Origin: Anaerolineae bacterium
GTDB taxonomy: Bacteria > Chloroflexota > Anaerolineae > Anaerolineales > Anaerolineaceae
NCBI GenBank assembly: GCA_013314735.1
Contig: JABUFD010000002.1
Span: 806,001-870,000 of the forward strand
Length of the DNA stretch: 64,000 bases
Direction: 5' to 3'
Shown: positions 16,503 through 60,214 of the stretch, piece after piece
Numbering within the stretch: position 1 is the stretch's first letter
Layout of the letters: each line of letters opens with the position of its first letter
The notes under the pieces: model-generated
Told to the model about the DNA's origin: nothing
Database searches by the model: none
What the model saw: only the letters and a program-made list of their open reading frames with translations
Position numbers and translations under genes: made by a program

Positions 16503-16531
16503 TTGACAGATTCTTGATTCTGTCAGATAAT
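16503..16531 (+). promoter_or_regulatory. sigma70 promoter with embedded operator-like palindrome
   Basis: TTGACA (16503-16508) and GATAAT (16526-16531) are spaced by 17 bases. The region 16504-16525 is a 22-bp near-perfect inverted repeat, TGACAGATTC-TT-GATTCTGTCA with one mismatched pair. It covers the -35 box and the entire spacer, where a dimeric regulator would block RNA polymerase. Confidence 0.75.
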
Positions 16532-16555
16532 CAAGATCAGGAAAAAGGAGTGTTA

Positions 16556-17242
16556 ATGGAAAATATCGTGCTGGAGGTACCGTTTCAACTGGACCCGGAA
16601 CGGCTGTTAAAGAAAATGAAAATTCGTTCCGCCGAAAACGCGGAAGAATTCCTGGAACTGGTCGACATGGTGCAGCATATCGCCGTTCCCAAAGTATTGT
16701 ACCGCACCGCTTTCATTGAGGCGCGGGGAGACGCTGCCGTCACCATCAATGGCGTCACGTTCCGCAGCACGGCAATGGTGCACAACCTCTCCGAAGTGCA
16801 GCGCGTGTTCCCCTATATTGCCACCTGCGGCACCGAGGTGGACCAGCTTGGCATAGATCCTTCTGACTTTGTGCGCCAGTCCTGGCTGCATTACATCAAA
16901 CTGGAACTGCTCACCTTCTGCCACCCGTTGCTGCGTACCGTGCTGGAGGAAGGATTCCAGGTGGGGAAACTGGCATCGATGAATCCCGGTTCGGGGGAGG
17001 CTTCGGTGTGGACGATCAACCAGCAAAAGGGGCTCTTCTCCCTGTTTGGTGATGTGCAGGCCCTGGTGGGGGTGCGTCTGACGGAATCCTTCCTGATGGT
17101 GCCGGAAGTATCTGTTTCGGGCATCCTGTTTGAAACCGAGAAAAATTATGCCAACTGCCAGCTGTGCCAGCGGAAAGATTGCCCCAACCGGCGCGCCGCC
17201 TTTGATGCAACTTTGTGGGAATCCATGCGTACAATGGTATAG
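16556..17242 (+). CDS. methionine-synthase activation-domain-like protein with Cys cluster
   Basis: A 228-residue protein that resembles the stand-alone proteins annotated as vitamin B12-dependent methionine synthase activation domain (Thermotoga TM0269 type). It is about the expected size. The C-terminus carries Cys201-x2-Cys204-x4-Cys209 followed by PNRRA, a motif that could bind an Fe-S cluster or zinc. In MetH the activation domain supports reductive methylation of oxidised cob(II)alamin using SAM and electrons from flavodoxin. Here the next two genes encode flavodoxin-like proteins, which fits a reactivase for a corrinoid protein. The start at 16556 follows AAAAAGGAG; an earlier in-frame ATG (16475) lies upstream of the promoter. 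Confidence 0.75.
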   Translation: MENIVLEVPFQLDPERLLKKMKIRSAENAEEFLELVDMVQHIAVPKVLYRTAFIEARGDAAVTINGVTFRSTAMVHNLSEVQRVFPYIATCGTEVDQLGIDPSDFVRQSWLHYIKLELLTFCHPLLRTVLEEGFQVGKLASMNPGSGEASVWTINQQKGLFSLFGDVQALVGVRLTESFLMVPEVSVSGILFETEKNYANCQLCQRKDCPNRRAAFDATLWESMRTMV

Positions 17243-17282
17243 CTGGATTGGTTTGATCGATTGAAGAGTAAGGAGAAAAGAA

Positions 17283-17777
17283 ATGGCAGCGGTGATTGTG
17301 TTTTATTCGATGTATAACAATACAAAAGCAGCCGCTGAATACCTGGCGGAAAAGATTGGCGCTCCGCTGGTGCGGCTGCAAGGGAAAGGCGCGGTGAACC
17401 CGGTGAAAGGGATGATGAAAATTTCTGCCAACCCGGTGGGTGATCCCTGGTCGGCGGTGCGGGATGCCGACCGGATGATCCTGATGGCGCCAATTTACGC
17501 ATTCAACGGCGTACCGGAGGTGCGCGGGTTTTTAAAGAACGCTGACCTGTCCGGTAAGGACGTGCTGATCATTACCAATGGCGCCGCGCCGGAAGAAAAG
17601 TTCTCTGCCAAAGTGGCCGCTCAGTACACTGAGTTGATCGAAAAAGCGGGCGGCAAAGTATCCCTGAATTTACACCACATCGGTGGGGAATACAAGCAGT
17701 TTTCCGGCAATACGCACGCGCATCAGCAAATTGACGGCATCCTTTCCCTGGTGCAGGCCTGGCTGGCACGGGCTTGA
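17283..17777 (+). CDS. flavodoxin-like protein 1
   Basis: A 164-residue flavodoxin-fold protein. The FMN phosphate-binding loop is FYSMYNNTKAAAEYLA at the N-terminus. A second flavin loop lies near APIYAFNGVPEVRGFL, and the strand DVLIITNGAA follows. It belongs with flavodoxin/menaquinone-protoporphyrinogen oxidase-like families and should carry electrons with FMN. AAGGAG precedes the ATG, 41 bases after the upstream stop. It shares architecture with the next gene and is probably cotranscribed from the promoter at 16503. Confidence 0.85.
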   Translation: MAAVIVFYSMYNNTKAAAEYLAEKIGAPLVRLQGKGAVNPVKGMMKISANPVGDPWSAVRDADRMILMAPIYAFNGVPEVRGFLKNADLSGKDVLIITNGAAPEEKFSAKVAAQYTELIEKAGGKVSLNLHHIGGEYKQFSGNTHAHQQIDGILSLVQAWLARA

Positions 17778-17797
17778 TCATTGGAGGAGAATTCGAG

Positions 17798-18274
17798 ATG
17801 AAGACGCAAATTGTTTACTTTTCGCTGCAAGGCCATACCAAACTGGTTGCGGAATTCCTGGCAGAGAAGTTAAGCGCATCATTGACGCGCCTGGTGGACC
17901 GCAAGAACCTGGACGGCAACGCGATTGCACAACACGAATATTGTGACCTGGCGGATGATCCCTGGCAGGTGATTCCCGGCAGCGACCGGTTGATCGTGCT
18001 TGCCCCGGTGTGGGGCTTCAGTATCATTCCCGCCATGTATACCTTCCTCGAGAAGGCAGACCTGGCGGGAAAAGAAGTGGTGATCGGCGTAACCAGTGCG
18101 TTTGGCAAATTGAGTGCCAGGCCGGTGCTGAAGCGCTACACGGAAATTGTGATCAATGCCGGTGGAAAAGTGGCTGGAACATTTAACGTCAAAAGCAATA
18201 TCCAATCCACGCCTGACCCCCAGAAAATGCACGCCCGCACCGCAGCGGTGCTGCCGAAAATCCAGGCATTCTGA
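17798..18274 (+). CDS. flavodoxin-like protein 2
   Basis: A 158-residue flavodoxin-fold paralogue of the previous gene. The FMN loop is YFSLQGHTKLVAEFLA, the second loop is APVWGFSIIPAMYTFL, and the third is GVTSAFGKLSARPVL. The start at 17798 lies nine bases after GGAGGA; an in-frame ATG at 17774 overlaps the previous stop and precedes that site. With two flavodoxins beside a cobalamin-reactivation-like protein, the set could form an electron-transfer chain, with each flavodoxin serving a different donor or acceptor. The terminator at 18337 closes the operon. Confidence 0.85.
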   Translation: MKTQIVYFSLQGHTKLVAEFLAEKLSASLTRLVDRKNLDGNAIAQHEYCDLADDPWQVIPGSDRLIVLAPVWGFSIIPAMYTFLEKADLAGKEVVIGVTSAFGKLSARPVLKRYTEIVINAGGKVAGTFNVKSNIQSTPDPQKMHARTAAVLPKIQAF

Positions 18275-18336: not shown

Positions 18337-18371
18337 AAAAAACCCTGGGTTTTCCATCGCCCAGGGTTTTT
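18337..18371. terminator. bidirectional terminator between the flavodoxin operon and SPFH gene
   Basis: An A-run, AACCCTGGG, a 10-base loop, CCCAGGGTT and a T-run: symmetric and usable by both converging transcripts. Confidence 0.85.
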
Positions 18372-18393: not shown

Positions 18394-19449
18394 TTATCCT
18401 TTGAGGAAATCCTCGAGGGCACTCTTGCTGATGCGATAGGCGCTGCCCAGTTTACGGGCTTTCAGGTCGCCGGCTTCGATGGCGGCCTTGACATCCTCTT
18501 CAGAAACGCGCAGGATGGCGGCGGCTTCAGCCGGGGTCATCACATCCGGCATGGCGCCGGTGCCGTTGCTGGCCTGCGGGGCAGCCTGTTGCTGGGGCTG
18601 CTGTCCGCCCTGTCCGCCGATGGCCTGGCCAAAATACTGGCCCAGTCCCACGCCCGCACCGATGCCCGCGGTGAGGCCGGCACCGCCGCTTTCATTGTTT
18701 GCGGCCTCGCGCAGCGCATCGGCAGCCTGCAGCTGGGTGTAGACATTCATATCGAGCATGCCCATCGCCCGCAATTCCTCAGCCGATTTGGTGGAGGGTT
18801 TCAGGTTGCCAATATAGAAGGATTTCAACTGTAAACCAATCGCGGCGAAATCATCCTGCGCCTTGGCGCGTACGCCGGCACCGAGTTCCTCGGTCAGGCC
18901 GATCAGCTCGAGTACATTGCGGGTTTTGGTGGTTTCACCGAGCAAGTCCTGCAGTTTCGACATCAGCATAATGCGCAGGCGGTTTTCAATGTCCGCGGTG
19001 CGGTACACGCCCTGCGCGCCGACGATCTGGGTGACAAACTGTTGCGGATCTGAAACCTGGTAGCTGTAAGTGCCAAAGCCTTGCAGCAGGGAGACGCCCA
19101 GCCCCACGCCGGGGTTGGCAACCATGATCGGCTGCGAGGTGCCCCATTTGCGGTCAGCAAATTCCTTGACCGATACGTAGTACACTTCGGCGGTGAAGGG
19201 GGTGCGGTCATTGAAAGCTTTGCCGATCAGGTCAACCAGCAGGGGGACGTTGGCGGTGACGATGGTATGGCGGCCGGCACCGAACATATCCAGGGCTTTG
19301 CCGTCGCGGAAGAACACCGCGCGCTGTGATTCACGTACGATTACCTGCGAACCGATCCGTAGATCGGCGATGCCGGTTTCCGGGAAACGATGCACGATCT
19401 CATCCTGCATCTCACTTCGATATTCAACTACATCAAATACTCTTGCCAT
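18394..19449 (-). CDS. SPFH/band-7 protein with C-terminal excisionase-type helix-turn-helix
   Basis: A 351-residue protein. Residues about 1-250 match the YdjI-like SPFH group (antifreeze/virion-core-like): SQRAVFFRDGKALDMFGAGRHTI, then FTAEVYYVSVKEFADRKWGT, then a long helical part with GLTEELGAGVRAKAQDDFAAIGLQL. There is no N-terminal membrane anchor. A Gly/Gln-rich linker (about 255-300, GGQGGQQPQQQ) leads to residues 303-350, a DNA-binding excisionase (HTH_17) module: MTPAEAAAILRVSEEDVKAAIEAGDLKARKLG. YdjI relatives usually end in a zinc ribbon instead. GGAG precedes the start. It is transcribed with the 19511 gene upstream, 61 bases away. Confidence 0.82.
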   Translation of the reverse strand: MARVFDVVEYRSEMQDEIVHRFPETGIADLRIGSQVIVRESQRAVFFRDGKALDMFGAGRHTIVTANVPLLVDLIGKAFNDRTPFTAEVYYVSVKEFADRKWGTSQPIMVANPGVGLGVSLLQGFGTYSYQVSDPQQFVTQIVGAQGVYRTADIENRLRIMLMSKLQDLLGETTKTRNVLELIGLTEELGAGVRAKAQDDFAAIGLQLKSFYIGNLKPSTKSAEELRAMGMLDMNVYTQLQAADALREAANNESGGAGLTAGIGAGVGLGQYFGQAIGGQGGQQPQQQAAPQASNGTGAMPDVMTPAEAAAILRVSEEDVKAAIEAGDLKARKLGSAYRISKSALEDFLKG

Positions 19450-22539: not shown

Positions 22540-23742
22540 ATGGCAACTGGTAAAAAGAAAAAAGGCGGTAGGACCTTGATCCTTTTGGCATTGGTGTTAA
22601 TCCTGGGATTGGTTGCGGTGTTTGTGCTGTTCCGTGACCGCATTCTCCCGGGCAACAATGCACCTGGAGAGGACGTGATCGCTGAAAACGGCGATACGTT
22701 TGAGGTTACCCCAGTGACAACAACCGCGGACATTTATGTGCTGCAGCAGCCGCTGGCGCGCGGACAGGTGATTGAAGAAGGACACCTGCTCAAGGTAGCT
22801 TACCCGCGTGAGCGCCTGATTGAAGGCCTCTTTATCACCAACCCGGCAGATGCGATCGGGAAACGGGCCATGTTTGAATTGGAAGCCGGTATGCCGCTGA
22901 CCTTCGCCATGATCAGTGAATCTGCCGAAGGTTCGTATGCTTCCTTCCAGATTCCCAAAGGTTACGTGGCAGTCACCATCCCGCTGGGAGATGACACCGG
23001 TATCGCTTCGGTGGCCTACACCGTGCGCCCGGGAGACCATGTCAATGTGATTTCCTCCCTGTTGTTTGTCGATTTGGACCAGGAATGGCAAACGATCCTG
23101 CCAAATGTGGTTGCGCCTGTCTACGCACCGGCATTGAGCTTTGCCCCGGTGGACCCGGCGAACCCGGATGCGGCTGTCCCGGCGTATAATGTCCCTATTA
23201 CGGCGCAGGTCAGTCCTGCCAGCGGGTTGCCTTACCTTGGGCGAACTGAATTATGGATGGGAATCGATCCCACCGGCACGGCCAACACAACGGCATATTA
23301 CATTCCATCGGAAGAACAGCGCCCCCGCCTGGTCAGCCAGACCCTGATCCAGGACGCGATTGTGCTGTGGGTGGGCGAATACCCGCTGAGCGACGAGAAA
23401 GCGCAGCTCAACATCGACCAGGAAGCGGCTGAATTCACCCAGGCTGGTACTGAAGAAGCGGAGCCGGTGGTGGAGGAAGAAGCCAAGCCGATGGTGATCA
23501 CCCTGGTGGTTTCACCACAGGATGCGGTCACCTTAAATTATATGATCCTCTCCAAGGCCAATCTTTCATTGGCACTGCGCAGCGCCGGTGATGACCAGCG
23601 GATCAATACTGAGAGTGTCACGCTGCAGTTCATCATGCAGCAGTACAATATCCCGCTGCCGTCTCCGTTGGCTTACGGCACCCAGCCCGGTGTTTTTGAC
23701 CTGAGCACCTATGAAGAACTGCCAACGTATGTTGCGCCCTAG
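22540..23742 (+). CDS. cpaB: Flp pilus assembly protein CpaB/RcpC
   Basis: A 400-residue CpaB/RcpC family protein. One N-terminal membrane segment (TLILLALVLILGLVAVFVLF) is followed by an extracytoplasmic SAF domain (about 60-130: VLQQPLARGQVIEEGHLLKVAYP) and the RcpC domain (GYVAVTIPLGDDTGIASVAYTVRPGDHVNVI). The C-terminus is beta-rich with an acidic low-complexity stretch (EEAEPVVEEEAK). In diderms CpaB helps the secretin; no secretin gene is present here, in keeping with a monoderm envelope. GGAGGCGAG precedes the ATG. Two TATAAT boxes (22414, 22436) upstream could provide a promoter after the pilin terminator. Confidence 0.9.
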   Translation: MATGKKKKGGRTLILLALVLILGLVAVFVLFRDRILPGNNAPGEDVIAENGDTFEVTPVTTTADIYVLQQPLARGQVIEEGHLLKVAYPRERLIEGLFITNPADAIGKRAMFELEAGMPLTFAMISESAEGSYASFQIPKGYVAVTIPLGDDTGIASVAYTVRPGDHVNVISSLLFVDLDQEWQTILPNVVAPVYAPALSFAPVDPANPDAAVPAYNVPITAQVSPASGLPYLGRTELWMGIDPTGTANTTAYYIPSEEQRPRLVSQTLIQDAIVLWVGEYPLSDEKAQLNIDQEAAEFTQAGTEEAEPVVEEEAKPMVITLVVSPQDAVTLNYMILSKANLSLALRSAGDDQRINTESVTLQFIMQQYNIPLPSPLAYGTQPGVFDLSTYEELPTYVAP

Positions 23743-23783
23743 TCCAACAACCACTTGAAAGCGAAACCTTACCCAACCAAGCT

Positions 23784-24200
23784 ATGAGCAGACAAATCCG
23801 AGTTTTATTGGTCGATGATATCCCTGAAACGATTGAGAGCGTGAAGCGCATGCTTACGTTCGATGAGGCCATCAAGGTGGTGGACGTTGCCCCCAGTGGC
23901 CGTGAAGCGATTGCCAAGGTGAAATCAACCGATCCGGATGTGGTGTTGATGGATATCAACATGCCGGATATGGATGGTATCACCGCCACACAACTGATCC
24001 GCCAACGCTTCCCGTATACCCAGGTGGTGATGCTGTCTGTTCAAAATGACCCCTCCTACATGCGGCGCGCCATGCGCGCCGGTGCGCATGATTTCCTGCC
24101 AAAGCCGCCTCAGCTGGATGAACTGATCGCGGTGGTCAAACGCGCCGGCGCCATCTCTGTGGAGCAGCGCAGCATGGCCGACCAGGACTGGTTCTGCTGA
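23784..24200 (+). CDS. response-regulator receiver domain (N-terminal half of a split CpaE?)
   Basis: A 138-residue CheY-like receiver. The acidic pair is in VLLVDDIPET, the phosphoacceptor Asp in DVVLMDINMPDMDG (about residue 52), Thr/Ser in VVMLSVQ, and the conserved Lys in DFLPKPPQ. The chain stops soon after with RSMADQDWFC. In many Chloroflexota and actinobacteria the CpaE-like protein joins such a receiver to a MinD-like ATPase. Here the ATPase starts 16 bases later in another frame. No Shine-Dalgarno is visible, so it is probably translated in coupling with cpaB. It could localise or regulate the pilus machine. Confidence 0.9.
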   Translation: MSRQIRVLLVDDIPETIESVKRMLTFDEAIKVVDVAPSGREAIAKVKSTDPDVVLMDINMPDMDGITATQLIRQRFPYTQVVMLSVQNDPSYMRRAMRAGAHDFLPKPPQLDELIAVVKRAGAISVEQRSMADQDWFC

Positions 24201-24216
24201 TACCCCCGGGGCACCC

Positions 24217-24990
24217 ATGCTGCAGCCCCAGCAGGGGAAAATCCTGACGGTGTTCAGCCCCAAAGGTGGTGTGGGAACGACGACGATCGCCAGCAACCTG
24301 GCGCTGGCTTTACGCATCAAGAAACACAAGGTGCTGCTGATTGATGCCAATAACCAGTTCGGTACCGTTACCCTGTTTTTCTCAGTCCGTCCGCGGAACA
24401 GCATCATCGACCTGATCTCCCGCATTGATGAATTGGACGCGGAGATCCTGAAAGAGGTGATTACGATCCATGAAGCCAGCGGCCTGGAAATCCTCGCCGC
24501 ACCGCCCCGGCCCGAAATGGCGGACCAGGTGAACGGTGAAGGATTCGGCAAGCTGCTCACCTATCTGCGCCGCTATTACAATTATATTATTGTTGACACG
24601 CCTGCTTATCTCGACGAAACCACATTGACTGCCATCGAAAAAGCGGATATCAACGTTCTGCTTTCTTCATTGGAAATTCCATCCTTGCGCAATGTTAACG
24701 CGTTTTCCCTGCTGTACCAGGCGTTGGGATACAATCCCAGGAAGATCGTGTTTGTGTTGAATCATTATGACCGCAAAGCCGGGATCTCTCTGGAGCGTAT
24801 CAGCGAAAGCCTGAACATGGAAATTTTTATGGCGCTGCCGCTGGACGACAAACTGGTTTTGCGTGATGCCGTCAAGCGCGGTGTGCCGGTGATGGTCGAC
24901 AACCAGTCGCATTTGTTCAGTAAAAATATCTACGTCCTCTCAACCAAGATCCAGGAAAAGATCACCCAGATGGAAGAAGTGGTCGTCTGA
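24217..24990 (+). CDS. CpaE/MinD-like pilus ATPase
   Basis: A 257-residue P-loop ATPase of the ParA/MinD family, subgroup CpaE. The deviant Walker A is FSPKGGVGTTTIA near the N-terminus, Walker A' is VLLIDANNQFGTV, and Walker B is YIIVDTPAYLDE. In Caulobacter CpaE positions the Tad pilus at the pole. It begins only 16 bases after the receiver gene's stop, in a different frame and without a clear ribosome-binding site. That suggests either gene fission with coupling or a frameshift in a once-fused receiver-ATPase gene. The next gene is cpaF. Confidence 0.9.
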   Translation: MLQPQQGKILTVFSPKGGVGTTTIASNLALALRIKKHKVLLIDANNQFGTVTLFFSVRPRNSIIDLISRIDELDAEILKEVITIHEASGLEILAAPPRPEMADQVNGEGFGKLLTYLRRYYNYIIVDTPAYLDETTLTAIEKADINVLLSSLEIPSLRNVNAFSLLYQALGYNPRKIVFVLNHYDRKAGISLERISESLNMEIFMALPLDDKLVLRDAVKRGVPVMVDNQSHLFSKNIYVLSTKIQEKITQMEEVVV

Positions 24991-25016
24991 TCAGCAGACC
25001 GCCCAGGAGTTAAACG

Positions 25017-26411
25017 ATGTCGATCTTAAGGCGTTTACAAAACGACGATAGCAATAACACCAATCCGGTCCAACGTAATTCGTCGACTGCGCGGTCAGCC
25101 ACCAGTGTCAGCCAGGTGGTGCAGCGATCACCGCAGCAATCCACCTACCAGGATTTAAAACGCCGGGTGCAGAACAAATTGATTGCGACGCTGGACCCGA
25201 AAATGGATGTGACCAAAACGGATGACGTACGCTCTTCGATCCGGGAGTTATTTGAGCAGCTGCTGAACGAAGAAAATATTGTGCTTTCCAAACCGGAGCG
25301 CGCCCGCATGTTCGACCAGATCGTGGCGGAAATTTTGGGCTTTGGGCCGCTGCAGCCGCTGCTGGAAGATGACAGCATAACCGAAATCATGGTCAATGGG
25401 CCCACTCATATTTACGTCGAGCGCAAAGGCAAGCTGCTGCGGGCCAAGGTGACATTTGAGGATGATGAACATGTGGGACGGGTGATCGAGCGCATTGTTG
25501 CGCCGCTTGGCCGGCGCATCGATGAGTCGCAGCCGTATGTGGATGCGCGCCTGCCAGATGGTTCGCGTGTGAACGCGATCATCCCGCCGATTTCCCTGGT
25601 GGGGCCGGTGCTGACCATTCGTAAGTTTGCCAAGAACCCGATCACGGTGGAACAGCTGATCGAATGGAAAACACTCACACCCCAGGCGGTAGATTTTCTC
25701 AAGGCGTGCGTCAAGGCGCGCATGAATATTGTCATTTCCGGCGGTACGGGTTCCGGGAAAACGACCCTGCTCAATATTGTTTCCAGCTTCATCCCCAACG
25801 ATGAGCGCATTGTCACCATAGAAAACGCCGCGGAACTCCAGCTGCGCCAGGAACATGTGGTTACACTGGAATCGCGTTCTGCCAATATTGAAGGCAAAGG
25901 TGAAGTATCCATCCGCGACCTGGTGATCAACTCGCTGCGTATGCGTCCCGACCGCATTATCGTGGGCGAAATCCGTGGTGGTGAATCGATCGATATGCTC
26001 CAGGCGATGAACACCGGCCATGATGGTTCATTGACCACGGCGCACTCCAACAGCCCGCGCGACACCCTCTCCCGCCTGGAAACGATGGCACTGATGGCGG
26101 GAATGGACCTGCCGGTGCGGGTGATCCGCGAGCAGGTGGCTTCTGCCGTGGACCTGATTGTCCACGAGGAACGTATGCGTGATGGCACCCGCAAGGTTGT
26201 CAATATTACCGAGGTCGCCGGCATGGAAGGCGATGTAATCACCCTGACGGACATCTTTGTGTTTGAGCAGAGCGGTTTTGAAAGCGGTGAGGTGCTTGGC
26301 TCCCTGCGGCCGACCGGCCTGCGGCCCAAGTTCATGGACCGCTTTGAGGCGTTTGGTATCTTCCTTTCACCGCAAATTTTCGGCGTGGGTTCCAGCCAGC
26401 GCAGAAGGTAA
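25017..26411 (+). CDS. cpaF: Tad pilus assembly ATPase CpaF/TadA
   Basis: A 464-residue secretion ATPase of the VirB11/CpaF family that powers Flp pilus assembly at the inner face of the membrane. The N-terminal domain has LGFGPLQPLLEDDSITEIMVNGP, the usual CpaF signature. Walker A is ISGGTGSGKTT near residues 241-249, the Asp box is IVTIENAAEL, Walker B is RIIVGEIRGGE, and the His box is GHDGSLTTAHSN. The first 45 residues are low-complexity (Ser/Gln/Asn). AGGAG precedes the ATG. It is followed by tadB and tadC in the same direction. Confidence 0.96.
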   Translation: MSILRRLQNDDSNNTNPVQRNSSTARSATSVSQVVQRSPQQSTYQDLKRRVQNKLIATLDPKMDVTKTDDVRSSIRELFEQLLNEENIVLSKPERARMFDQIVAEILGFGPLQPLLEDDSITEIMVNGPTHIYVERKGKLLRAKVTFEDDEHVGRVIERIVAPLGRRIDESQPYVDARLPDGSRVNAIIPPISLVGPVLTIRKFAKNPITVEQLIEWKTLTPQAVDFLKACVKARMNIVISGGTGSGKTTLLNIVSSFIPNDERIVTIENAAELQLRQEHVVTLESRSANIEGKGEVSIRDLVINSLRMRPDRIIVGEIRGGESIDMLQAMNTGHDGSLTTAHSNSPRDTLSRLETMALMAGMDLPVRVIREQVASAVDLIVHEERMRDGTRKVVNITEVAGMEGDVITLTDIFVFEQSGFESGEVLGSLRPTGLRPKFMDRFEAFGIFLSPQIFGVGSSQRRR

Positions 26412-57691: not shown

Positions 57692-60214
57692 ATGAGCAAC
57701 GCATTCTATCTTGGACGTGTACTGGATGAGAAGACCGGCAAGGCTTCCGCGGAAGACCTGCTGTACGATCCCGATGACCTGACCACGCATGCCGTCATCA
57801 CCGGCATGACCGGTTCCGGTAAGACCGGGCTGGGAGTGGGCCTGCTGGAGGAGGCCGCGCTGCACAACATTCCGGCGATGATCCTGGATCCCAAGGGCGA
57901 CCTGACCAACCTGCTGCTGCATTTCCCCGAACTGCGCGGCGCGGATTTTGCCCCGTGGGTGGATCCGCACACCGCCCAGCAAAAGGGTATCACGGTGGAA
58001 GAACTGGGCCAGCAGGCAGCCGACAGCTGGCGCAAAGGCCTGCAGGATTGGGGATTGGGGCAACCCAACATCGAAGCCCTGCGGGATGCCGCCAGCTATG
58101 TCATCTATACCCCCGGCTCCACTGCGGGTGTGCCGATCAATATTGTTTCCTCCTTCGAAGCGCCTGCCATGCCGTGGGAGGAGAATGCCGAGGTGCTGCG
58201 GGAACGCATTGCTTCCACCATCACCGCCCTGCTGGGGTTGGTGGGTATGCACGATATCGACCCGCTGCGTTCGCGCGAGCATATCCTGCTCTCCAATATC
58301 ATGGAAACCGCCTGGCGCAATGGGCGTTCGCTGACCATGCTCGACCTGATCACGCAAATCCAGACCCCGCCGTTTGACCGGCTGGGGGCATTCCCGCTGG
58401 ATTCATTCTTCCCTGCCAAAGAGCGCATGGACCTGGCATTTGTACTCAATAACTTCCTTGCCTCGCCCTCCTTCCAAAGCTGGACGGAAGGCCAGCCGCT
58501 GGATTTCGCGCAGCTGATGTTCACCGCGGACGGCAAACCCAAACATAACGTCTTTTACCTGGCGCACCTCAGCGAGGATGAGCGCATGTTCTTTGTCAGC
58601 CTGTTCTTTGCCACCTTTGAAAGCTGGATGCGCACCCAGCGCGGCACGGGGCACCTGCGCTGCCTGATCTATTTTGATGAGGTGGTGGGTTACCTGCCGC
58701 CGGTTTCCAACCCGCCCTCGCGGGAGCTGATCCTGCGCATGCTGAAGCAGGCGCGCGCCTACGGGGTGGGGTTGATCCTCGCCACGCAAAACCCGGTCGA
58801 TGTGGATTACAAGGCGCTTTCCAACGCCGGCACCTGGCTCATTGGGCGCCTGCAAACCGAACGCGATGTGGACCGCCTGATGGACGGCCTGCGTGCCGCC
58901 GGCGGGGATGCGCAGCCGGCGGAAATCCGCGACAGGATCAGCGGCCTGCCCAAGCGCTGCTTCCTGATCCACAACATTCACGGCGGCAAGCCCACCCAGT
59001 TCTTTACGCGCTGGGTGATGAATTACCTGGCCGGCCCGATGACGCGCAGCCAGATTCCCGCCCTGAACCTGCTGGATGGGGTGGATGAGAAGGCGCAGAT
59101 GGCCCAGGCCCGTGCGCCGCAAGCGCCAGCGGCATCCGAGCCGCAGGCACCGGTCAGTCAAACGCCTGTGACAGCCGCCGTTGCGCCTGCCACTGCCAGC
59201 ATGCAGGCACAGCCCGGCCAGCGCCCGATGGTGCCAACCGGCATTCATGAGATTTTCCTGCCGATCACCCAGAGTCCCAAGGAAGCCCTGCAGGAATCTG
59301 GCCTGGCGTTTGCGCCGGACGCGAAGGTGGAGAACGGCCTGTATTACGTGCCGCATTTCTTCCAGCAATTCACAGTATTGTACACTTCCAGTAAGCTGGG
59401 CATAAACCACCAGGTGCGGCAGGCGTACATTGCACGGGAAGCACCGGTTTCCAGTTTCATCGAATGGCAGGACTATGCCTGTAAGCCAGTGGATGCCGGC
59501 GAGGTGATGCAGCCGGAGCGCACGGACGCAAGGTATGCGCCATTGCCGGACCGCCTGTTGCCAACCGGCAGTCTCAGCACCTTCAAAACAGCAATGGCGG
59601 ATTGGATGTACCGTACTGTCACCTTGCAGGTGATGGGCAATCCCACCCTCAAGTTGTACGCCGCACCGGATGAGAGCAAGGAAGACTTTACCAAACGCTG
59701 CCGGGCGGCGGCACAGCAGCAGCTGGAAGCGGAGGCATCGACGATTGAGGCCAAATATCGCAAAGACCGTGCCGCGCTGGATGATAAAATTGAGCGCGCG
59801 GAGCAGCGCCTGGCGGAGGAGAAGATTGACCTCAGCCAGCGCCAGATGGAAGAATTGGGCACCGGCGCGGAATTGTTGATCGGCCTGGTGGGCGGGCGCA
59901 AGCGCAGCGTGAGCAAATCTCTCACCAAGCGGCGCATGACGGCCCAGGCCAAGCAGGATTACAAGGAACAGCAGCTGTTACTGCGCCAATTGCAGGATCA
60001 ACTGGCGGCACTGGAAAAAAGCAAGGAAAGCCAGATTGATGGATTGGTGGAGAAGTGGACGAAAATTTCCGCGCAAACCACCGTGGAATCGGTCAGTCCG
60101 TACAAGAAGGATATCGTGAACGAGATCTTCGGCGTGGCCTGGCTGCCGTGCTACCCGGTGGTGGTGGGGCAGGAGCGGCGCTACCTGCCGGCCTGGGAAC
60201 AGAAAAAAGACTAG
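57692..60214 (+). CDS. HerA/FtsK-type ATPase (helicase HerA-like)
   Basis: An 840-residue P-loop ATPase. It starts FYLGRVLDEKTGK, a typical HerA-like N-terminus. Walker A is GMTGSGKT (residues 38-45), then MILDPKGDLTNLLL, and Walker B is CLIYFDEVVGYLP (near 322-334), with LILATQNPVDVDYKALSNAGTWLIGRL as the sensor region. The C-terminal third holds a Pro/Ala linker (about 470-515), a DUF-type beta region and a long coiled coil (about 670-790). Its role may be DNA translocation, but no NurA nuclease is nearby. GGAGGAC precedes the ATG. It lies between two AT-rich islands yet has normal composition. Confidence 0.85.
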   Translation: MSNAFYLGRVLDEKTGKASAEDLLYDPDDLTTHAVITGMTGSGKTGLGVGLLEEAALHNIPAMILDPKGDLTNLLLHFPELRGADFAPWVDPHTAQQKGITVEELGQQAADSWRKGLQDWGLGQPNIEALRDAASYVIYTPGSTAGVPINIVSSFEAPAMPWEENAEVLRERIASTITALLGLVGMHDIDPLRSREHILLSNIMETAWRNGRSLTMLDLITQIQTPPFDRLGAFPLDSFFPAKERMDLAFVLNNFLASPSFQSWTEGQPLDFAQLMFTADGKPKHNVFYLAHLSEDERMFFVSLFFATFESWMRTQRGTGHLRCLIYFDEVVGYLPPVSNPPSRELILRMLKQARAYGVGLILATQNPVDVDYKALSNAGTWLIGRLQTERDVDRLMDGLRAAGGDAQPAEIRDRISGLPKRCFLIHNIHGGKPTQFFTRWVMNYLAGPMTRSQIPALNLLDGVDEKAQMAQARAPQAPAASEPQAPVSQTPVTAAVAPATASMQAQPGQRPMVPTGIHEIFLPITQSPKEALQESGLAFAPDAKVENGLYYVPHFFQQFTVLYTSSKLGINHQVRQAYIAREAPVSSFIEWQDYACKPVDAGEVMQPERTDARYAPLPDRLLPTGSLSTFKTAMADWMYRTVTLQVMGNPTLKLYAAPDESKEDFTKRCRAAAQQQLEAEASTIEAKYRKDRAALDDKIERAEQRLAEEKIDLSQRQMEELGTGAELLIGLVGGRKRSVSKSLTKRRMTAQAKQDYKEQQLLLRQLQDQLAALEKSKESQIDGLVEKWTKISAQTTVESVSPYKKDIVNEIFGVAWLPCYPVVVGQERRYLPAWEQKKD

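Follow-up and report, generated by a model that had tools for sequence, protein, structure and literature searches.

The gene P1 in the window (the whole stretch of 64 kb that was analysed) encodes a stand-alone protein which is predicted to have the fold of a MetH activation domain, does not carry the motif RxxxGY and ends in a conserved cysteine tail. It is followed by two genes for flavodoxin-like proteins, F1 and F2. We tentatively propose that P1 is a SAM-independent accessory for the reactivation of corrinoid (B12) proteins, with F1 and F2 as its likely electron donors. As relatives of P1 are often located beside genes for the repair of B12 proteins, P1 is probably a helper which keeps such proteins active.

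Operon layout and promoter region

The gene P1 (16556-17242, + strand) codes for 228 amino acids and is followed on the same strand by F1 (17283-17777, 164 amino acids) and F2 (17798-18274, 158 amino acids, 33% identity with F1). The intergenic gaps are 40 nt between P1 and F1 and 20 nt between F1 and F2, and a GGAG-type ribosome site is present ahead of F1 as well as of F2. Upstream of P1, a putative sigma-70-type promoter (16503-16531, + strand) was recognized by consensus match only, with 11 of 12 positions matched in the scan. Its -35 box TTGACA (16503-16508) and its -10 box GATAAT (16526-16531) are separated by 17 nt. A hairpin resembling an intrinsic terminator, with 13 pairs and a T run, is located downstream of F2 (18338-18371, + strand). 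A previous sequence-only reading of this DNA had described an operon, and the single promoter, the short gaps and the single terminator-like hairpin agree with that layout. The promoter, the palindrome, the three genes and the three cysteines which it named are all present.

The palindrome is an operator-like inverted repeat of 22 bp (16504-16525) with 10-nt arms that are 90% complementary and 2 nt between them, and it spans the -35 box from its second base and then the spacer. A second inverted repeat with perfect 8-nt arms, 9 nt apart (16512-16519/16529-16536), overlaps the first one. Palindromes as good as this one (two 10-nt arms with 9 or more paired positions, 0-4 nt between the arms) number 35 in the window, 8 of them with a spacer of 2, and given how common they are the palindrome is modest evidence. 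Its specific pattern is found once in the 4.09 Mb genome, with one additional site at 3 mismatches. That a dedicated repressor acts on this near-unique putative operator is a guess. No Rfam family and no tRNA gene was found in the window.

Elsewhere in the window, a gene on the minus strand (18394-19449) encodes an SPFH/Band-7 protein that has HTH_17 as its C-terminal domain. RcpC/CpaB and T2SSE-type ATPase genes in the style of a Tad pilus cluster lie at 22540-26411, and an open frame of 840 amino acids (57692-60214) has no Pfam match at E 1e-5.

Fold, motif position and cysteine tail of P1

The MetH activation domain family PF02965 matches P1 with 29.8 bits at a Pfam cut-off of 25, although the match covers only profile positions 198-261 of 273, i.e., the last quarter. 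The only other Pfam match of P1 is DUF4505, which is sub-threshold (E 1). A structure model of P1 was built from eight homologues (pLDDT 86.8). Its residues 1-194 match TM0269 (1j6r) over 184 residues with a Z of 17.7; the values are 14.1-15.6 for other MetH activation domains and 5.2 for the next fold. With Foldseek, all 19 matches of the model at E 0.001 are MetH entries. Nitroreductases score a Z of about 4-5, and no MMADHC structure is among the fold matches listed for the model. According to this model, P1 is shaped as a MetH activation domain. The structure-model check that had been suggested for P1 has thus found the activation-domain fold, and the matches to TM0269 and to MetH activation domains bear out the earlier description of P1 as activation-domain-like.

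MetH binds SAM via the motif RxxxGY. We take Tyr1177 of human methionine synthase to be the tyrosine of this motif. During reactivation, Tyr1177 favours the four-coordinate form of cob(I)alamin, as described in the accessible part of the source (PMC13376404). When P1-type sequences are aligned with canonical activators, 1j6r carries RISPGY where P1 reads SMNPGS (codons 141-146, 16976-16993, + strand). Of the 100 P1-type sequences compared, 88 have Ser at the Tyr position, and Tyr stands in none of the 97 which have a residue there. Arg occupies the Arg position in 16 of 96, and RxxPGY was found in no row. As RxxxGY has been lost from P1 and its type, the classical SAM route is not expected for P1.

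The sequence-only reading had assigned P1 to SAM-dependent reactivation of the MetH type, with F1 and F2 as donors. In this case SAM would have to be bound in an altered way. The PF02965 score above the cut-off, the matching fold and the adjoining flavodoxins would fit such a role, and TM0269, which Huang is said to have described in 2007 as a stand-alone reactivator serving the adjacent MetH, offers a precedent. However, RxxxGY is gone in the P1 type and kept in the stand-alone activators of two metH loci (L011, L240; see below) as well as in the host MetH, which has its own activation domain with RYSWGY. We therefore consider this assignment highly doubtful. A role of P1 as activator of an adjacent MetH that lacks an activation domain was also considered and rejected, since no metH gene lies beside P1 and the host MetH has the domain.

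The codons for Cys201, Cys204 and Cys209 of P1 (17156-17182, + strand) are invariant in an eight-row alignment. Because the aligned part of the model stops near residue 195, this cluster forms a tail outside the fold. The tail is kept in all 22 P1-type rows which were found without a cysteine pattern, and conservation was counted on these rows only, because the pattern by which the best 80 of 165 relatives from the contig scan were chosen includes CxLC. In the rows which lack one or more of the three cysteines (L101, L104, L132), the reading frame is truncated to 137-139 amino acids. P1 thus shows both features together, the absence of RxxPGY and a CxxCx4-5C tail.

The two downstream genes had been read as flavodoxin-fold genes, which is supported for F2 by Pfam (Flavodoxin_5 and Flavodoxin_4 above cut-off) and for F1 by a structure model. 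F1 is below the Pfam cut-offs, and a flavodoxin fold is seen in its model (pLDDT 79.4), with 186 matches at E 0.001, the best being 3d7n. An S-x4-T loop is present in both proteins. Judged from sequence and model, F1 and F2 look like flavodoxins and may bind FMN.

Distribution, gene neighbours and RACo

A P1 match at E 0.001 is present in 10 of 101 related genomes, and in two of these the match is weak. In the class, 114 of 396 genomes match at E 0.001, a number which counts related and MetH-embedded domains, and 46 of 396 carry a strong P1 (E 1e-70 or better). A sample of the phylum yielded 7 of 400 at E 1e-30. Scanning a contig collection with P1 alone returned 77 stretches with no confirmed relative. 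The scan with an alignment of homologues gave 165 relatives, and among the best 80 of these, which were kept, the P1 type was also found in Clostridia, Planctomycetota and Bathyarchaeota. One of these genes (L106) belongs to a Desulfosporosinus strain (NZ_NADJ01000037), which is culturable and non-pathogenic.

The neighbours were analysed in 92 loci (77 from the contig scan and 15 from class genomes, reduced from 109 at 90% identity), and the locus of the window itself (L066) was excluded from the counts. A B12-related gene lies directly beside the P1-type gene on the same strand in 9 of the 92 loci, and 83 are without one. RACo (L102, L115), a pterin-binding methyltransferase (L115, L133) and UroD (L121, L140) adjoin P1-type genes on the same strand, and in four loci (L067, L097, L122, L134) a methylmalonyl-CoA mutase gene follows directly. 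Pfam was run on the neighbours in L097, L102, L115, L133 and L140. Three of the four mutase loci belong to Anaerolineae or Chloroflexi and one to a genome of the host's class, and the four may represent one inherited arrangement. Methylmalonyl-CoA mutase is an AdoCbl enzyme, for which reactivation of the MetH type is not the known repair route. Furthermore, folate genes are located beside the P1 type in L095 and L144, and the operon in L144 reads as the methyl branch of the Wood-Ljungdahl pathway. In a further locus (L126:455-2742), the P1-type gene is followed after 36 nt by a gene whose product fuses nitroreductase, DisA-type diadenylate cyclase and DisA linker domains.

Counted per gene, families of the B12 seed set, which were chosen after looking, match 13 of 107 same-strand neighbours, 0 of 70 on the opposite strand and 13 of 352 genes at least four places off (p 0.003). 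In an unbiased Pfam tally, among the 25 families listed per set, the mutase reached 4/90 against 1/88 in the control set, RACo 2/90, and the pterin-binding family 2/88 in the control set, which is a small excess only. Overall, the P1 family has a real but moderate link with corrinoid enzymes.

The occurrence of both methyltransferase and mutase genes among the neighbours would fit a carrier for several enzymes. P1 may accordingly be read as similar to MMADHC (CblD), loading or presenting the corrin to apo-enzymes with the cobalt held by a Cys thiolate, so that the flavodoxins would only keep the corrin reduced. We consider this carrier role a serious rival, if a distinctly unlikely one. MMADHC is structurally near the activation domain, and P1 combines an activation-domain fold without the SAM motif with invariant cysteines. 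In the accessible parts of the respective papers, MMADHC is described as reusing a nitroreductase-like fold (PMC4705923) and as putting cobalamin on methionine synthase by a cobalt-sulfur bond (PMC13376404). However, the CxxCx4C spacing seems to resemble a metal site more than a single ligand, and two flavodoxins are left unexplained by a pure loader.

A related group of 20 loci was taken from weaker matches in the class. Here RxxPGY is absent in 19 of 20 and the Cys tail is present in all 20. The remaining member (L240) keeps RYSPGY, adjoins a MetH-like gene and lies downstream of a MetF-like one; in the order metF-activator-metH, the stand-alone activators of L011 and L240 retain RxxxGY. Among the 19 motif-less members, 11 are located beside or in a string with genes for RACo, a corrinoid protein, UroD or a methyltransferase (L224, L225, L226, L228, L231, L234, L237, L238, L239, L241, L242), and 9 of 17 if L241 and L242 are omitted, which were picked knowing that RACo is on their contigs. 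Pfam confirmed RACo in L224 as well as UroD and the corrinoid protein in L231. Four members were scanned for PF02965, with one above the cut-off, two below and one without a match. In seven of these loci (L224, L225, L226, L228, L231, L238, L241), the operon link to corrinoid genes is stronger than that of P1 itself.

A second activator in L137, ahead of MttB and corrinoid genes, keeps RFSPGY as well as the Cys tail, and such operons are therefore not confined to motif-less forms. In the tree, the P1 clade has a support of 0.37, and P1 is not placed with the RACo-linked group. A function transferred from the related group to P1 is thus something we infer, because the tree does not settle which group is nearest. 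In two loci (L133:8001-12083 and L243:3865-6608), activator-like genes lie near a gene for a protein of 681-696 amino acids, which by eye resembles a hydantoinase A / ASKHA protein.

The presence of RACo was compared between 40 of the 45 other genomes with a strong P1 and 40 genomes lacking P1, which were hand-picked mostly from the same families. RACo was found in 38 of 40 and 28 of 40, respectively (p 0.006), and within family f64 in 5 of 5 genomes with P1 and 2 of 9 without. The difference may result from genome size or completeness. A RACo profile end near position 250 was counted by eye in about 30 of 40 genomes with P1 and 13 of 40 without, and a split of RACo types by P1 presence is only suggestive. 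In a RACo tree, for which no branch tests were used, the RACo of L115 groups with that of the host and the one of L102 does not. At most RACo loci of P1 genomes, a methyltransferase neighbour is absent. Proteins with a B12-binding_2 domain occur in 46 of 46 P1 genomes and 328 of 350 others (p 0.09). That every P1 genome has such a protein was dropped as a link, being too weak when 328 of the 350 others have one too.

In the host genome, the RACo gene adjoins a UroD gene. Two stand-alone corrinoid proteins are encoded (C4:152969-153634 and C9:985610-986248), one in a pair with UroD that is followed by a GGDEF gene, and a corrinoid protein adjoins a homocysteine S-methyltransferase. The RACo and corrinoid genes are all located away from P1. 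A lack of co-occurrence with corrinoid proteins had been named as a point against the reading of P1, and such a lack was not observed: relatives of P1 do co-occur with corrinoid systems, although the host has no corrinoid gene in the vicinity of P1. The row of corrinoid protein, UroD and GGDEF genes (L043:6970-10760, on host contig C4) lies behind a sensor-like frame of 1657 amino acids and is possibly a corrinoid-linked signalling operon. The stretch with the corrinoid protein and the homocysteine S-methyltransferase (L042, host C9:978000-994000) has a third-position GC near 0.45 and two other profiled host stretches about 0.6-0.78; this offset suggests recent transfer or mis-binning.

The trio itself had been regarded as a self-contained three-gene module. 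Its synteny was checked in 99 P1-type loci (the 92 non-redundant ones and L013-L019; 15 of the 92 have a flank of about 1.5 kb or less), and no relative of F1 or F2 was found there. In a genome of the host's family (G007), a different flavodoxin-fold gene, FMN_red, follows 103 nt after P1, and in L092 a weak flavodoxin-like match lies about 0.8 kb from P1. Relatives of F2 are present in 5 of 101 related genomes, host included, and F1/F2 profiles match in 6 of 396 class genomes. With these numbers, the idea of a conserved module was dropped.

This result would fit P1, F1 and F2 not being one system, with another redox or protein-docking role for P1 and the flavodoxins as chance neighbours, as would the lack of a B12 neighbour at most P1-type genes. 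We nevertheless hold such a separation to be unlikely, as the three genes, only 40 and 20 nt apart, lie between a single putative promoter and a single terminator-like hairpin and the P1 family is linked to RACo. In addition, F1/F2 relatives occur in five genomes besides the host, and four of these also have a strong P1, albeit on different contigs and with weak hits (4 of 45 strong-P1 genomes against 1 of 350 others, p 0.0007). A shared theme was not found in the neighbourhoods of F1/F2 relatives; in G421, about 5.5 kb separate an F1/F2-type flavodoxin from a corrinoid protein, and RACo is also close to this flavodoxin.

Proposed function and comparison with known systems

For P1 as a SAM-independent accessory, we infer the following course. 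A corrinoid protein of the cell would become oxidised to Co(II). P1 would dock on its B12 domain in the manner of the MetH activation domain, which docks over the corrin. An electron might then be delivered from reduced flavodoxin (F1 or F2), perhaps via the Cys tail of P1, and the resulting Co(I) would be trapped by the methyltransferase cycle or in concert with the ATP-driven RACo. In the accessible part of one study, the Co(II)/Co(I) couple is placed below flavodoxin and ferredoxin and is raised by activator and ATP (PMC6739815). Because the couple lies below flavodoxin, a trap or RACo may be needed in addition to flavodoxin and P1.

It is possible, though we put it with more reserve, that P1 stands for a broad and undescribed class of prokaryotic corrinoid helpers, which dropped SAM, carry a CxxCx4-5C metal or thiol tail, cooperate with RACo and in the host lineage use dedicated flavodoxins. 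The upkeep of Co(I) in corrinoid proteins limits acetogenesis, demethylation and dehalogenation, and the routes usually named for it are that of MetH with SAM and flavodoxin and the ATP-driven reduction by RACo-type activators. If the proposal is true, P1 would be a third repair or loading factor beside the MetH type (SAM and flavodoxin) and the RACo type (ATP and iron-sulfur), and its class could be the prokaryotic counterpart of MMADHC. A motif-less activation-domain family tracking RACo in the class would supply a component that has been missing, and the strings of genes linked to RACo would offer compact sets for testing.

With TM0269 of Thermotoga maritima, P1 shares its stand-alone nature and, over residues 1-194 of the model, the fold. 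TM0269 has RISPGY in place of SMNPGS, and the Cys tail of P1 lies outside the aligned part. The MetH activation domain and P1 have a common fold and Pfam family (PF02965), but P1 is not fused to a B12 domain, is shorter, has lost RxxxGY and carries the Cys tail. RACo, RamA and AE presumably act in the same process as P1, and their genes adjoin some P1-type and many related genes; they consist of Fer2 and ASKHA domains, whereas P1 matches neither. Human MMADHC (CblD) has a functional cysteine at the cobalt, according to the accessible text (PMC13376404), and P1 has conserved cysteines; however, MMADHC is eukaryotic and not among the fold matches listed for P1, and Co-S binding in P1 is hypothetical.

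Clusters of corrinoid protein, UroD and Ram/RACE genes have been described, and the core genes named in the accessible part of that work include no P1-like protein (PMC10418091). MecGH are named as likely reactivation proteins in what is accessible of another paper (PMC9768040). A motif-less, Cys-tailed stand-alone activation-domain protein with RACo was not found in the literature covered, with subscription papers mostly outside the search and sources partly accessible; nearby themes in it are stand-alone SAM-type activators, RACo/RamA and the pairing of a RamA-like activator with DUF1638. In Phaeobacter, a RamA-like activator needs a second protein, DUF1638, for B12 reactivation, as far as the accessible text reports (PMC5764234). 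This partner resembles the proposed role of P1 beside a RamA-like activator, although P1 matches PF02965 instead.
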